Origin: Immundisolibacter cernigliae
Lineage (GTDB): Bacteria; Pseudomonadota; Gammaproteobacteria; Immundisolibacterales; Immundisolibacteraceae
Reading direction: 5' to 3'
Length of the DNA: 64,000 nt
Assembly: GCF_001697225.1 (NCBI RefSeq)
Contig: NZ_CP014671.1
Span: 992,001 to 1,056,000, forward strand
This document shows positions 48,018 to 54,644 of this stretch, in pieces. Positions within the stretch are counted from its first letter, which is position 1. Every line of letters begins with the position of its first letter. A model generated the notes under the pieces. It searched no databases. It worked only from the letters and a program-made list of their open reading frames with translations, and had not been told where the DNA came from. Both the position numbers and the translations under genes were made by a program.

Positions 48018-48652
48018 AGAAATCGTAGAAATCGTAGCCTGGATGCAGCGCAGCGGAATCCGGGATTTCCTCACCCATGGTGAACTACCGCCGAGCCACC
48101 GTCCCCGGAGCAACGTACTTCTTCACGGTCACCCTGCGGGACCGCAGCTCCCGCCTCTTGATTGACCAGATCGCCGCCCTTCGCGAAGCCCTGCAAACCA
48201 CCAGGCGAAGCCAGCCATTTCGCATCGATGCGATGGCCGTGCTGCCCGATCACGTTCACGCCATCTGGACCCTGCCGGCGGACGATCATGACTATTCCGG
48301 GCGCTGGCGCGCCATCAAGGCGGGCTTTACGACAGCCGTGCGAGCGCGCGGCGTGTCTGTGTGCCGCAACCGGCGAGGGGAATATGACATCTGGCAACGC
48401 CGGTTCTGGGAGCACCTGATTCGGGACGGCACGGATTTCACCCGGCACGTGGACTACATCCACTTCAACCCAGTGAAGCACGGCCTGGCACAGCGACCCG
48501 TGGACTGGCCTTGGTCCTCCCTGCACCGATACATCCGGCAGGGCATTGTTCCGCCCAACTGGGCCGTCGGCGTGGACGAAGGGCAATTTGGGGAGTGATG
48601 GGGATCCCGGATTCCGCTGCGCTTCATCCAGGCTACGATTTCTACGATTTCT
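48018..48652 (+). mobile_element. Full-length REP-RAYT element
   Basis: 635 bp bounded by near-perfect inverted repeats of about 48 bases. Each consists of AGAAATCGTAGAAATCG followed by the REP unit (R2 48034-48070; inverted R3 48601-48636), differing by one base. The RAYT gene lies inside. REP-associated tyrosine transposases are known to handle REP hairpins; this is the autonomous copy of the family here. Confidence 0.85.
48077..48598 (+). CDS. REP-associated tyrosine transposase (RAYT, IS200-like Y1 family)
   Basis: 173 aa. Y1 transposase domain with the HUH motif as His59-Val-His61 (LPDHVHAIW) and the likely nucleophile Tyr127 in VDYIHFNPVKHG. A C-terminal WPWSSLHRY follows. Acts on single-stranded REP hairpins. 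ATG 48077 lies 6 bases after REP R2 and the stop 2 bases before R3, so the gene is framed by its own substrates. All catalytic residues appear intact. Confidence 0.92.
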   Translation: MVNYRRATVPGATYFFTVTLRDRSSRLLIDQIAALREALQTTRRSQPFRIDAMAVLPDHVHAIWTLPADDHDYSGRWRAIKAGFTTAVRARGVSVCRNRRGEYDIWQRRFWEHLIRDGTDFTRHVDYIHFNPVKHGLAQRPVDWPWSSLHRYIRQGIVPPNWAVGVDEGQFGE

Positions 48653-49168: not shown

Positions 49169-49268
49169 TCGGTGCGTGAAAAGCGGGCCTGGCCGCTGAC
49201 CTGCCTAAACACCCCTGAAACCGCCCACGACGACTCGTGTAACGCCAGTACCCGGCCAGCGCGAGCGT

Positions 49269-49478
49269 GTAGCCTGGATGAAGCGCAGCGGAATCCGGGA
49301 CTTCCTTGCTCATCGTCAAGCACGGCCTGGCACAGCGACCCATGGACTGGCCTTGGTCCTCCCTGCACCGATACATCCGGCAGGGCATTGTTCCGCCCAA
49401 CTGGGCCGTCGGCGTGGACGAAGGGAGGTTCGGGGAGTGATGGGAACCCCGGATTCCGCTGCGCTTCATCCAGGCTAC
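49269..49478 (+). mobile_element. Non-autonomous REP element B (internally deleted RAYT)
   Basis: 210 bp: REP R4 (49269-49305), a six-base spacer, the last 40 codons of the RAYT gene (from VKHGLAQRP onward), and inverted REP R5 (49443-49478). The inside equals the full element minus 393 bp (603 minus 393 = 210, REP to REP). The start codon has become ATC here, so no peptide is expected. Confidence 0.88.
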
Positions 49479-49483
49479 GATTT

Positions 49484-49530
49484 CTGCGCGGCTTTATCGC
49501 GCAGCGTCCGGTGGACCGCAGGGTTATGTT
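49484..49530 (-). other. Putative attC half-site of an integron-like cassette
   Basis: On the minus strand, one base after the stop of the membrane-protein gene, come ACATAAC (fits RYYYAAC), then CCTGCGGTCCACCGGACG, then a hairpin CTGCGCG-ATAAAGC-CGCGCAG. This is the layout of the first half of many environmental attC sites. REP element B begins directly after the hairpin. Beyond it the minus strand has GGCCGGGTACTGGCGTTACAC, resembling the second half (…GGCGTTRRRY). Confidence 0.45.
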
Positions 49531-50053
49531 TCATAGCTGTAGTGGCACGATCCATAAGCTCGCAAATGCGACGCCTACGCTGAAGGCATTAGCCAGAACA
49601 AGCCAAGCAAAATTCTTACTCTTGATTTTGAAGTCGACCTTAAACGCCTTCTTGTACACAAACCCCTCCAATACGGCGTTGACTACGCAGGCCAGTAAGA
49701 ATGTGCCCGCCCAAGTGATGGGGTTAAATGTTCCCCATCCCAACGCCCAGTTATAAACAGAAGCAGGAAACAGTTCCCAAGCGATACCTGCAAGGGGAAC
49801 TAGAACTACCCCAACTACCGCTGATGCGGCGTTAGCCGATAGATCTGCAATAGCCGCACGACTTGGAGCCAAACCAAACAGCCAGCGTACGAACAAATAC
49901 TCGATGACAAGGCCAACTGAGATTGCCCACCAAGAGAATAGCCGCGTTTCCAAATAGAGTGCAGGCCAGACTACGTTGGCATAGGCGAGGGTTGGCGCTG
50001 CCAGAAGAACTGCGACTAATAGCTTCCTCAACGGTGGCTCCATGAAACATAAC
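49523..50053. repeat. 12-bp perfect inverted repeats around the membrane-protein gene
   Basis: GTTATGTTTCAT at 49523-49534 and its exact complement ATGAAACATAAC at 50042-50053 flank the gene tightly and take in its stop and start codons. Confidence 0.8.
49531..50043 (-). CDS. Hypothetical integral membrane protein (cassette-like gene)
   Basis: 170 aa, about four to five hydrophobic segments (residues about 8-28, 33-57, 72-92 and 108-125, and the C-terminus), with a signal-like start MEPPLRKLLVAVLLAAPTLA. I recognise no family. Base composition is visibly poorer in G+C than its neighbours. The gene begins 10 bases after GTTATGT and ends one base before its complement ACATAAC, as expected of an integron gene cassette. 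No integrase is in the window. Confidence 0.7.
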   Translation of the reverse strand: MEPPLRKLLVAVLLAAPTLAYANVVWPALYLETRLFSWWAISVGLVIEYLFVRWLFGLAPSRAAIADLSANAASAVVGVVLVPLAGIAWELFPASVYNWALGWGTFNPITWAGTFLLACVVNAVLEGFVYKKAFKVDFKIKSKNFAWLVLANAFSVGVAFASLWIVPLQL

Positions 50054-50240
50054 GTGAAATAGACACCAAATGGCGTATAACTCGGGCGCAGACATGTCGT
50101 AACCGACTGTCACGCAAAGGAATATCGGTCACGTCAAGATTATCCGTCATTGGGCAGCCCACCGCAGGATGGGGGGAGGCCGCCAAGCCATGATTCATCG
50201 TAACGCGCCCCCATGTATACGCAATGCCGTAAGCCAGCGT

Positions 50241-50450
50241 GTAGCCTGGATGCAGCGCAGCGGAATCCGGGACTTCCTTGCTCATGGTGAAGCACGGCCT
50301 GGCACAGCGACCCGTGGATTGGCCCTGGTCCTCCCTGCACCGATACATCCGGCAGGGCATTGTTCCGCCCAACTGGGCCGTCGGCATGGACGACGGGCAG
50401 TTCGGGGAGTGATGGGGATCCCGGATTCCGCTGCGCTCCATCCAGGCTAC
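50241..50450 (+). mobile_element. Non-autonomous REP element C (internally deleted RAYT)
   Basis: 210 bp with REP R6 (50241-50277) and inverted REP R7 (50415-50450), about 95% like element B by eye and with the same internal deletion. Here the fusion keeps ATG and frame. It lies downstream of the antitoxin gene, where a toxin gene would be expected. Confidence 0.88.
50284..50412 (+). CDS. Possible 42-aa fusion peptide of deleted RAYT
   Basis: ATG GTG of the RAYT start is fused in frame to codon 134 onward, giving MVKHGLAQRPVDWPWSSLHR and on to the native C-terminus (42 aa). It lacks the HUH and Tyr residues. It may be untranslated; if made, it could interfere with RAYT. Confidence 0.3.
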   Translation: MVKHGLAQRPVDWPWSSLHRYIRQGIVPPNWAVGMDDGQFGE

Positions 50451-50473: not shown

Positions 50474-50725
50474 TCAGCTTTCGTCGGCCAGCAACTGCGC
50501 CGGCTTTTTCTCGGTCAACCCCGCCGCAGCGGCTTCGTCGGCCGTATCGCGCAGCGCTTTGCGCAGGCGGTCGGCATAAAACCGGCGCATGGCATCGTAA
50601 TCCTTGGCGCTCACCATCACCCCGACCACGCGGTTGTGCCGCGTTACCTGCACTGGCGCACGCTGCACGCGGTCCAGCAATTCGCCGAAGCGGGTTTTGG
50701 ATTCGTTGGCGGTAAAGGTCTGCAT
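50474..50725 (-). CDS. Phd/YefM family antitoxin (orphan)
   Basis: 83 aa. MQTFTANESKTRFGELLDRV and the RHNRVVGVMVSAKDYDAM segment are the DNA-binding Phd/YefM fold. A charged Ala-rich C-terminal tail would bind a toxin. No RelE/Doc-type toxin follows; 24 bases after the stop comes REP element C. The promoter region and first codons are duplicated upstream (50859-51017). Confidence 0.88.
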   Translation of the reverse strand: MQTFTANESKTRFGELLDRVQRAPVQVTRHNRVVGVMVSAKDYDAMRRFYADRLRKALRDTADEAAAAGLTEKKPAQLLADES

Positions 50726-51017
50726 GGGTCACCCGGCGGTCAGCAGGAGAATGAGCGAAGTATGGTCGAATCGAACGAAACGATCAATTTGGGCGCTTGG
50801 CGCGGCCTGGCCGCTCGATCATCCCGGATTCCGCTACGCTCCATCCAGGCTACGATTTCTGCACGCGGTCCAGAAATTCGCCGAAGCGGGTTTTGGCTTC
50901 GTTGGCGGTAAAGGTCTGCATGGGTCGCCCGGCGGTCAGCAGGAGAATGAGCGAAGTCTGGTCGAATCGAACGAAACGATCAATTTTGGCGCTTGGCGCG
51001 GGCTGGCCGCCCGATCA
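50663..51017. repeat. 159-bp tandem duplication with a REP exactly in between
   Basis: 50663-50821 and 50859-51017 are nearly identical (a few base differences), period 196 = 159 + 37. The 37 bases between are an inverted REP (R8, about 50819-50853 plus flank). Each copy holds the antitoxin promoter region and its first codons. Confidence 0.88.
50850..50921 (-). pseudogene. Antitoxin gene fragment (duplicate 5' end)
   Basis: From ATG at 50921 the minus strand reads MQTFTANEAKTRFGEFLDRV, matching the start of the intact antitoxin. It runs into the REP and stops at TAG within it after 23 codons. Confidence 0.85.
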
Positions 51018-51477: not shown

Positions 51478-52697
51478 GGAAACGCTGATCAATCCCCCGA
51501 AACCAGCGCTATGGACATGACGGCGCTGACGCGTGACCGCCCCTGGGGAAAAACGGCCCGTTTTCGGGTGTGGATCGGGCCAATGTGCGTGTTCTGGCCG
51601 GATATTCCGGTTTTGGGCTCCCTCAGGACGCACGGAGGGTGTGCCGCGCCCGAAGGCGCCAGCCGGCAATCACCACGTTGGCCAGGCCGAACAGCGTGAA
51701 CAGCTGCGCCTGGTTCTTGGCCAGCCCCCGGTAACGCGCCTTGCGGTGCTTGAACAGGTTCTTGATGATGTGAAACGGATGCTCGACCTTGGCCCGCAGG
51801 CTCGCCTTGACCTGTTCGATCCGTTCCTGCAGGCGGCCCAGCGCGTCATCGGGCAGGGCCCGGCGCACGCCCGGGCGCAGCGCCACGTGCCAGGTGACCG
51901 GCGTGTCCCGATTCTCCGGGCGCTTGGCTACGCCCTGGTAGCCGGCATCGCCCAGCGCGTCCGTTTCCTGCCCGTGCAGCAGGGCGTGCGCCTGGGTCAC
52001 GTCGTTGACGTTGGCCGGCGTGGTCAGCACCGTGTGCACCAGCCCCGAGTCCAGGTCGACCCCGATGTGCGCCTTCATGCCAAAGTGCCACTGGTTCCCC
52101 TTCTTGGCCTGATGCATGTCCGGATCGCGCGCCCGGTCGCGGTTCTTGGTCGACGGCGGGGCGGCGATCAGCGTCGCATCCACGAGGGTGCCCTCACGCA
52201 GCAGCAGGCCCTGGCGGGCCAGGTGATCGCGAATCGTCTCGAAGATCACCCGGCTCAGACCCTGATCTTCCAGCAGGCGGCGGAACTTCAGCAGCGTGGT
52301 CGCATCCGGCGCCGCCTCGCGGGCCAGGTCGATGCCGATGAAGCAGCGGATGGCGTGGCTGTCGTACACGGCGTCCTCGATGCCCTCGTCCGACAGCCCA
52401 AAGCACTGCTGCGCCACGTACATGCGCAGCATGCGCGACAGCCCCAGCGGCGGGCGGCCCGGGCCCTTGCCGGCCGGGTAGAACGGCGCCAGCGCCGCCT
52501 CCAGCTGCGCCCACGGCGTCACCGCCTGCAGCTGCGCCAGGAAGCGCTCGCGGCGCGTCTGCTTCTTCTTGCCGGCGTACTCGAGGTCGGAAAAGCTCGT
52601 TTGCATGACGTCTGCTCACCACCGCTGCGGACCAGGTCACATTGTCTCAGGACCAAGGTCTCATGCCTCCAACGGGAGGGAATAAATCAGCGTTTCC
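51478..52697 (-). mobile_element. IS5-family insertion sequence, 1,220 bp
   Basis: Ends share the perfect GGAAACGCTGAT (51478-51489, and complement ending at 52697), then similar YAWTCCC-type bases. Flanked by a TTAT duplication (51474-51477 and 52698-52701). One transposase gene fills it. Both ends, the duplication and the open frame suggest a recent insertion. Confidence 0.92.
51623..52606 (-). CDS. IS5 family DDE transposase
   Basis: 327 aa, very like IS5 transposase. N-terminal DUF772 region (LSRMLRMYVAQQCFGLSDEG, EDAVYD), then DDE residues in GTLVDATLIAAP, GDAGYQG and VEHPFHIIKNLF, with the hallmark MHQAKKGNQWHFGMKAHIG. Full length, apparently active. Confidence 0.95.
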   Translation of the reverse strand: MQTSFSDLEYAGKKKQTRRERFLAQLQAVTPWAQLEAALAPFYPAGKGPGRPPLGLSRMLRMYVAQQCFGLSDEGIEDAVYDSHAIRCFIGIDLAREAAPDATTLLKFRRLLEDQGLSRVIFETIRDHLARQGLLLREGTLVDATLIAAPPSTKNRDRARDPDMHQAKKGNQWHFGMKAHIGVDLDSGLVHTVLTTPANVNDVTQAHALLHGQETDALGDAGYQGVAKRPENRDTPVTWHVALRPGVRRALPDDALGRLQERIEQVKASLRAKVEHPFHIIKNLFKHRKARYRGLAKNQAQLFTLFGLANVVIAGWRLRARHTLRAS

Positions 52698-52994
52698 TTA
52701 TATTTATCTCCATCAGTTTGGATCGCGTCTTGGGCGAATGCAGAAGTCGCGAGAAAAACAGACCCTATGAGGATCGAGTTGCGGAGCATCATGAGAACTC
52801 TCCTTATATTTCCAAGTCCCAAGGGACCACTAATTAAGCGAGCCATAGGGTGGACGGAGGTCCCGACCGTAACCTATCGTCACCATATAGCCAGCGGCCC
52901 AATACCGGCAAGCAGGGCGCCAATGGTCGCGTGGAGTCGATGGGTTTCACTGTGCTCCACCCATCCTCCCGCTACGGTCGTATCCCGCCCCCCG

Positions 52995-54644
52995 TCACGT
53001 CACCCCACCCGTATTCTCATCCGTCGCCTTCACGCGACGCAGTTTGGCCGCTTCACCGATCTCGTAGTGCCGGCCTTCGACGGCCATCTGCGCCTCGGTT
53101 TCGCATTGCTCGGACCAGAAGCCCAGGTCGTAGCCGTGCCAGGGCTTTTTCAGTTCCAGTGCCGGCAGGCCGAGTTCCTGCCAGCGCTGGATGGCGTTTT
53201 CCATGAAGTCCTTGCGCGGCAGGGCCACCGGCGGGTAGGCCCACGGCCGGCAGGCGTTAATGAGGATGGCGGACGAGCCGTTCGGCTCCATGTATTTGAA
53301 GCCTTCGGCCTCTTCCGCGCGGATGGCGGAGAAGTCCATGGCCGACATGCGCCCGTCGATGATGCGCATGTCCCGGTGCGGCATGGCGCGCGTGGCGGTG
53401 GCCCACAGCATCATTTCCGGGTCGTGGATGTCCACGTCCTCGTCGGTGACGACGAACATCTTGACGAACGGGTCGTAGGCCGCGGCGGCGTACAGCGCCT
53501 GCCACGGGTCGGCCTTGGTGTTGCGCCGGATCTTGATGAAGCAGGTGTAGTAGGCCGAGGTCTGCTGCGGGAAGTGCACGTCGAGCACGCCGGCCAGGTT
53601 GCAGTCGTACTTCAGGTGCTTGAAGAACGAGGCCTCGAAGGAAATGGACCGCAGGCGCGTGCTCTCGGACGGCGGGAACTGCGACAGGATGGAGCACCAG
53701 GTCGGCTTTTTGCGGTGGGTGATGGCCGTCACTTCCATGAAGTAGGACATGACCGGCTGGGACATGAAGCCGTGGGTCTCGCCAAACGGCGCCTCGGGTT
53801 CCAGCTCGGTGGTGGAAATCCTGCCCTCGATGACGATCTCGGCGTAGGCCGGCACCAGCAGGTCGACGGTCTTGGCCTGCACCACCGGCAGCGGCCGGCC
53901 GGACAGGGCTCCGGCAATCTGCAGCTCGTCGGACTCGTAGGGAATCTTGGCGTTGGCGGCGTAGGACACGTACGGCGGCACGCCGATGACCAGCGCGGCT
54001 TCCAGCGGAATCCCTAAGCGCTTGCACTTGACCCAGTGCAGGCCCAGGTGCTGCGGCGGGTAGGTGAAGCAGCCGATGCGCTCCGGCGCCTTCACCTGGC
54101 CGCGGTAGTTGCCGATGTTGTAGATGCCGGTCTCGGGGTCCTTGGTGACCCAGTGCGAGAAGGTGGTGTAGGGACCGTTGTCGTAGCCGGGCGTGGAAAT
54201 CGGGATCGGGAATTCGCCAAGGCCGCCGTGCTCGGTGAGCGAGGCGCCCATGTGGACTTCTTCCTGGCACGGCGCGTTGGTGACGACTTCCGGCGGCAGC
54301 GGGTTGCGCAGCGCGTGGGACACCAGCTCCAGCAGGTTGTCGCCCGGCTGCATGCCAAGGCCGGTCTCGAAGATTTTGCGCGACGCCGCCAGGCAGCCGA
54401 TGGCCAGATCGCCTCCGAAACTGCGCCCGTCGGCGCTGCGCACGTTTTTGAGCAGAAAGCCGCGCCGCTGGTCTTCCTTCAGGCCGCGGAACTGCAGCCT
54501 GACCAGCGGATGGGCTTCGGTCTCGATGGTGATTGGCGCGTCGATTTCCCACAGCAGGTCGCGGGCGCGCAGGTTCTGGATGTGCTCCCGAAAATCGATG
54601 GGCACGTCGCTGGAACGCAGGGTGGATTTGAGTACGGCGGACAT
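52995..54644 (-). CDS. UbiD family decarboxylase
   Basis: 549 aa prenylated-FMN-dependent (de)carboxylase. Longer than E. coli UbiD (about 497 aa) and related to aromatic or unsaturated-acid decarboxylases. Seen: NIGNYRGQVKAPERIGCF (the prFMN/Mn-binding IGNYR type), PPQHLGLHW, EIVIEGRIS, EAPFGETHGFM with the catalytic Glu region, and VVTDEDVDIHDPEMMLWATA. No ubiX neighbour is present, and ubiG lies 38 kb away. A ubiquinone role is less likely than degradation of an aromatic acid, but the substrate is unknown. ATG 54644. Confidence 0.93.
   Translation of the reverse strand: MSAVLKSTLRSSDVPIDFREHIQNLRARDLLWEIDAPITIETEAHPLVRLQFRGLKEDQRRGFLLKNVRSADGRSFGGDLAIGCLAASRKIFETGLGMQPGDNLLELVSHALRNPLPPEVVTNAPCQEEVHMGASLTEHGGLGEFPIPISTPGYDNGPYTTFSHWVTKDPETGIYNIGNYRGQVKAPERIGCFTYPPQHLGLHWVKCKRLGIPLEAALVIGVPPYVSYAANAKIPYESDELQIAGALSGRPLPVVQAKTVDLLVPAYAEIVIEGRISTTELEPEAPFGETHGFMSQPVMSYFMEVTAITHRKKPTWCSILSQFPPSESTRLRSISFEASFFKHLKYDCNLAGVLDVHFPQQTSAYYTCFIKIRRNTKADPWQALYAAAAYDPFVKMFVVTDEDVDIHDPEMMLWATATRAMPHRDMRIIDGRMSAMDFSAIRAEEAEGFKYMEPNGSSAILINACRPWAYPPVALPRKDFMENAIQRWQELGLPALELKKPWHGYDLGFWSEQCETEAQMAVEGRHYEIGEAAKLRRVKATDENTGGVT

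Follow-up and report, generated by a model that had tools for sequence, protein, structure and literature searches.

The window analysed here (64,000 nucleotides of the single Immundisolibacter cernigliae contig, NZ_CP014671.1) contains, at 49531..50043 on the minus strand, a gene for a 170-residue membrane-type protein. No family is assigned to this protein in Pfam or NCBIfam, and a search of viral contigs returned no relative. The gene is bracketed by a perfect 12-bp inverted repeat that ends in GTTATGT on the start side (50047..50053, minus strand) and ACATAAC on the stop side (49523-49529, minus strand). GTTATGT is conserved in homologues and is complementary to ACATAAC, the R'' box of the cassette's own attC. 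ACATAAC is followed by the arm GCGGTCCACCGGAC and a perfect 7-bp hairpin, CTGCGCG/CGCGCAG (49484-49504). From the GTTATGT left end to the last surviving attC base, the integron gene cassette in its present form spans 570 bp (49484..50053, minus strand), with a G+C content of 0.518 versus 0.675 for the window.

The cassette abuts element B (49269..49483), a REP miniature in which two inverted GTAG REPs surround the 3' fragment of a REP-associated transposase gene. B has 31-bp perfect inverted ends (49269-49478), and its right end, GGCTACGATTT, is common to other copies; with GTAG-headed inverted ends, a transposase-gene fragment and a RAYT (REP-associated tyrosine transposase) in the same genome, it falls among the GTAG REP/RAYT miniatures. 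A second copy, B' (50241..50450), is in direct orientation to B and 94% identical to it. The likely source of both is the RAYT gene at 48077..48598 on the plus strand (NF047646, 190 bits against a cut-off of 80). The features on which the initial annotation had founded its reading of an integron-like cassette, namely the paired boxes, the arm and hairpin, the lower G+C content and element B, are thus all present. Rfam at gathering scores reports one tRNA in the whole window and nothing else.

Homologous cassettes and the truncated attC site

A genome scan for relatives of the cassette protein yielded 16 loci. Two stand nearest to the window: L010, from a Halothiobacillus MAG, whose protein is 93% identical, and L011, from a betaproteobacterium, at 91%. 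In both, the cassette gene has the ends seen in the window, its 69-bp attC is intact and the flanks are unrelated. Their DNA matches to the window are ungapped (584 bp at 92.5% for L010, 583 bp at 89.9% for L011), start just before GTTATGT and stop at attC base 46, and several attC hits mark the array to which the L010 cassette belongs. The covariance models described below place an attC directly 3' of the gene at six loci (L010, L011, L012, L015, L016 and L021), of which only the L015 and L016 sites lay outside the training sets, and a fold-based finder adds L013 and L018.

Both boxes occur at nine of the 16 loci and the same attC is intact at two of these, so that the pattern is not a matter of chance. 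At five others (L014, L020, L022, L023 and L024; 49-63% identical) clear marks of a cassette are absent, with a degenerate start-side box alone at L014 and L022; the protein family therefore also occurs outside cassettes, and the proposed check for homologues in ordinary settings without attC gives a mixed answer. These five loci speak for an ordinary chromosomal gene with boxes that arose by chance, yet that reading is very improbable in view of the nine loci with both boxes, the full attC at the two closest and the end of sequence similarity at the cassette ends. Judged by its sequence and that of its relatives, the gene at 49531-50043 does belong to an integron cassette, as had been proposed: homologues in unrelated bacteria have identical ends and intact attCs. 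The dN/dS ratio of about 0.15 against L010 and L011 indicates that constraint is still acting on the gene.

The attC of the window cassette is a remnant (49484..49529, minus strand) that corresponds to bases 1-46 of the 69-bp L010 site. R'' (49523-49529), the L'' arm and the central hairpin are kept; L' and R', the right 23 bp, are gone, so that the complete set of R'', L'', L' and R' is found in L010 and L011 and lacking in the window. The cut is exact: the match to L010 ends at window base 49484, attC base 46 of 69, and B starts at the boundary of attC bases 46 and 47 (49483/49484). Since aligning 22 complete attCs with MAFFT failed to bring the arms together, covariance models R1 and R2 were built from the joined arms of 18 of 27 candidate sites, in two registers; sites whose bulge register differed or whose coordinates were doubtful were excluded. 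These models recovered attCs in arrays and in the I. cernigliae genome and gave no match in the window.

The initial annotation had taken the attC to be split by B, with a second arm, GGTACTGGCGTTAC (minus strand of 49239-49252), beyond the element. Of the 14 bases in this stretch, however, 10 (GTAACGCCAG) are ordinary flank that a congener (G001, hereafter the sister genome) also has at this place, where it carries no cassette. Joined to the far flank, the remnant has a folding energy of -19.4 and forms 11 arm pairs, where the L010 attC reaches -24.8 and 18 pairs, and random right parts equal the joined site in 292 of 1,000 trials on pairs and 317 of 1,000 on stability. The expected right half resembles the far side at chance level (1,695 of 2,000 random 40-mers score as high), and the R box there matches at only four of seven positions. 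A second arm on the far side was therefore rejected. Insertion of B into a complete attC that kept its second arm has in its favour that GGTACTGGCGTTAC looks to the eye like an arm, and nothing else, and against these figures its probability is negligible: the attC is amputated rather than split, because the joined site performs like random DNA and 10 of its supposed 14 arm bases are flank in the sister genome.

Truncated integrase genes and their attI-like sites

The genome (one contig, 3,243,537 bp) contains no IntI above the TIGR02249 cut-off, either in the window or elsewhere; two longer matches to the model look like what we take to be XerC and XerD. The cassette had been described as a lone one with no integrase. 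The absence of an integrase holds genome-wide, whereas the cassette is not alone: the genome contains further attCs and six N-terminal stubs of intI, each accompanied by an attI-like site. The stubs (loci L038-L043, at 196 kb and at 1.70, 2.80, 2.83, 3.07 and 3.11 Mb) extend over some 40 to 90 codons from the start of the gene, as confirmed by comparison with ten reference IntI proteins. A C-terminal piece of IntI was found nowhere in the genome. Next to each stub, and divergent from it, lies the attI-like site, of type A (196 kb, 2.80 Mb and 3.07 Mb), type B (1.70 and 2.83 Mb) or type C (3.11 Mb). At five independent loci the type-A stubs break off close to one and the same codon (HGKRHP); two of these loci are in I. 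cernigliae, each with an ortholog in the sister genome, and three are in the sister genome only. Recognisable attCs follow three of the six stubs. Additional attCs are located at 134 kb (two), at 642 kb (one) and, as a weak hit, at 542 kb, in addition to the one half attC of the window locus.

The sister genome has eight intI-stub/attI units, two of them incomplete. All seven genomes of the family, I. cernigliae included, lack an IntI over the cut-off; across the 56 genomes searched, 18 have one, which marks integrons as common in the class. Three relatives have N-terminal-only IntI matches (G002:C86, positions 1-122; G003:C83, 2-96; G007:C122, 1-117). In type-A attI sites (for example L042:2295-2330) a perfect palindrome, CCGACAAATGTCGG, lies just before the core and is conserved in most copies, and type-B sites have a similar one, CGCCAAATGGTG; these palindromes are possibly binding sites for a regulator or an integrase. 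Directly behind attI sites lie genes (L039:1776-2465, L120:3754-4151 and L122:6345-6923) that presumably encode, among others, an aquaporin-like channel and a HicB/HicA-like pair; one protein has a weak UvrC-type match.

Five of the stub loci have orthologs in the sister genome, and at four of these attI is recognised in both genomes (L042/L114, L040/L117, L039/L119 and L043/L120). All four pairs are 86-95% identical through the truncated intI, from which it follows that the truncation is ancestral. In every pair, however, the similarity breaks off at the attI core GTT or no more than a few bases from it, and the two genomes carry different first cassettes. In the L039/L119 pair synteny returns just after the last attC of I. 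cernigliae, and in L043/L120 an IS lies between stub and attI in the sister genome. These stub-attI loci thus qualify as platforms, with cassettes exchanged at every comparable site, and the combination of shared truncation with different first cassettes implies that recombination continued after the local integrases were lost. The simplest reading is that an integrase acted in trans after the two genomes split and has since been lost from I. cernigliae. An intI may also hide in a contig gap of the sister genome, which is in 30 contigs. Different losses from a longer ancestral array at the four pairs are possible; since precise loss at attI also needs an integrase, this alternative still calls for one.

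A further account dispenses with a trans-acting integrase. Several complete ancestral integrons, each with its own integrase, would have decayed independently, and the cassettes, that of the window included, would have been captured in cis beforehand. The three sequence types of the intI stubs and the occurrence of IntI in almost a third of the genomes searched are consistent with this. It is nonetheless unlikely, as the truncation is common to both genomes at four loci whose first cassettes differ, and as the divergence falls at the attI core, where precise loss would again require an integrase.

The window cassette itself may adjoin a relic of such a platform. A degenerate attI-like site lies upstream of it (50047..50150, minus strand), with no intI stub adjoining. 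The likeness was noticed by eye before it was put to a model. The best match of the type-B attI model in the window (50048-50080, minus strand) falls at the exact cassette start and is weak (E 0.095), and a longer attI model gives E 0.41 at the same place, both values referring to 128 kb and both strands. The match came from the type-B and combined models only: the type-A model has no match at the cassette, and the best row of the combined model is on the opposite strand (50064-50083), within a palindrome. Further upstream, a shared GGATAATC recurs with similar spacing. Taken together, these resemblances are suggestive of a cassette that sits at a decayed attI.

The sister locus and REPs at attC sites

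At the corresponding locus of the sister genome the neighbouring genes are conserved, and a segment of approximately 990 bp (49249..50228 of the window) is missing, with the near-repeats GTAACGCCAG (49239) and GTAAGCCAG (50229) at the breakpoints. The locus has one copy of B, and hence there is no empty site for B itself in that genome. The left part of this single copy is closer to B' than to B, and B' is probably its ortholog. The sister arrangement as a simple product of recombination between B and B' was considered and rejected, because 17 bp that should survive a crossover inside B are missing from it. A single B'-like copy, with 10-bp near-repeats at the breakpoints, is compatible either with gain in the window or with loss in the sister genome.

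The locus is bounded by what we take to be a UbiD-type gene (52995..54644, minus strand). In the sister genome an intI-stub/attI unit lies directly beside this gene, followed by a different gene, and the corresponding place in the window holds a REP-like sequence with an IS transposase gene nearby. Two further features were noted in this region. A Phd/YefM-type antitoxin gene has its start region in tandem duplicate (50663-50804 and 50859-51000; 142 bp, 96%), with a REP between the two copies; in the sister genome this region is apparently single. In addition, the DDE transposase gene of a multi-copy IS and, beside it, the start of a gene with a signal peptide occupy 51623-52606 and 52661-52846; the latter gene apparently continues into the IS. 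Near-identical copies of this transposase occur in the cassette regions L043 and L038.

The repeats around the segment raise the question of passive arrival, in which the cassette was carried in by homologous recombination between REP miniatures within a B-bounded segment, and neither an integrase nor the local attI was involved. Four observations fit: the segment lies between direct repeats, B and B'; the sister locus has one B only; the right half of the attC is missing beyond B; and the local attI is weak. On the other hand, the breakpoints in the sister genome lie at 10-bp near-repeats outside B, and the attI-like sequence is the top hit of the window, at the exact cassette start and on the right strand. 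We therefore regard passive arrival as doubtful and favour insertion by an integrase.

The REP in the window attC is one of a wider set. The GTAG-REP pattern has 57 matches in the I. cernigliae genome, against none for the reversed control. Among ten attCs, with neither the window remnant nor the weak hit L042:3042-3131 counted, a REP lies downstream within 20 bp at three, within 50 bp at four and within 120 bp at five. In every case the GTAG end is nearest the attC. The REPs at 136149, 1702069, 2799118 and 3111151 are 11-45 bp downstream of an attC and share one orientation. The window REP has this orientation as well, but lies inside the attC. When the REP map was rotated 20,000 times, at most 1, 1 and 2 rotations equalled the counts at 20, 50 and 120 bp; the test preserves clustering and ignores the preference of REPs for intergenic DNA, so this significance is somewhat overstated. 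Three of the ten attCs (136072, 1701375 and 1702238) were seen only by scanning loci already chosen, and for the seven found genome-wide a REP lies within 50 bp at three. Similarly, five of the nine RAYT loci are within 2 kb of an integron locus, a number reached by 9 of 20,000 rotations. None of the six attC candidates in the sister genome has a REP nearby, and thus the REP-attC link rests on one genome.

Proposed history and comparison with known systems

We propose that the cassette was probably inserted by an integrase at an attI unlinked to a working intI, and that a RAYT-family REP then entered its attC, with loss of the right arm. The upstream sequence would be the decayed attI, and the integrase would have acted in trans, as at the four other attI sites of the genome. 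The REP miniature would have landed in the folded or palindromic attC by RAYT-driven insertion, and a later deletion would have removed L' and R', although the order of these events may differ. An attC without L' and R' cannot be recombined. Loss of both would therefore leave a cassette that can no longer be excised, and its gene may now be a fixed chromosomal gene.

A broader scheme, which we offer tentatively and with distinctly less confidence, is a distributed integron. Dispersed attI platforms, whose intI genes are cut to about the first 40-90 codons, would all be stocked by one trans-acting integrase, since lost or encoded on a mobile element, and RAYT-driven REPs would land on folded attCs and so lock cassettes in place, that of the window included. 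The usual picture of an integron is one integrase, one attI and one array. Two sister genomes with ancestrally truncated intI and differing cassettes make the service of many attI sites in trans a testable proposition.

As an integron gene cassette, the window example agrees with those in the consulted sections of PMC12444791: a single gene, a GTTRRRY-type left end, the R'' complement at the stop and an attC-type hairpin, with close homologues that keep an intact attC. It differs in that its attC lacks the right half, in being a single cassette remnant and in the absence of an integrase gene from the genome. The same sections describe chromosomal integrons of Xanthomonas with truncated intI and CALINs at conserved loci. 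Both there and in I. cernigliae, intI is truncated and cassettes remain at conserved chromosomal places. In contrast to the one ilvD platform plus CALINs of Xanthomonas (PMC12444791), I. cernigliae has intI 5' stubs at six scattered loci, all of them next to an attI-like site, and several of these loci are common to the sister genome with different cassettes.

GTAG REPs associated with RAYT, in the portions of PMC3733652 and PMC8266576 that were available, are GTAG-headed palindromes that form inverted pairs with a RAYT nearby, as here; the REPs described here differ from them in lying in or directly downstream of attC, in one orientation. GTAG REPs inside palindromes are reported from two species in section 7 of PMC3733652, which makes attC hairpins plausible REP targets. 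No paper found in the open-access literature appears, judging by titles, opening abstract text and consulted passages, to describe multiple or orphan attI sites or REPs in attC; the term 'attI-like' is used in PMC10127599, whose abstract concerns off-target activity. The window cassette itself is of a known kind; apparently new in its setting are the stub-attI platforms with swapped cassettes and the REPs at attC.

IS1111-attC elements and group IIC-attC introns are mobile elements that exploit attC sites. The REP miniature in the window would exploit an attC as they do, but it belongs to the RAYT family, is neither an IS nor an intron, and is accompanied by partial destruction of the site. 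The adjacency of REPs and attCs suggests a third class of attC-exploiting element, and a route by which captured genes may turn permanent.
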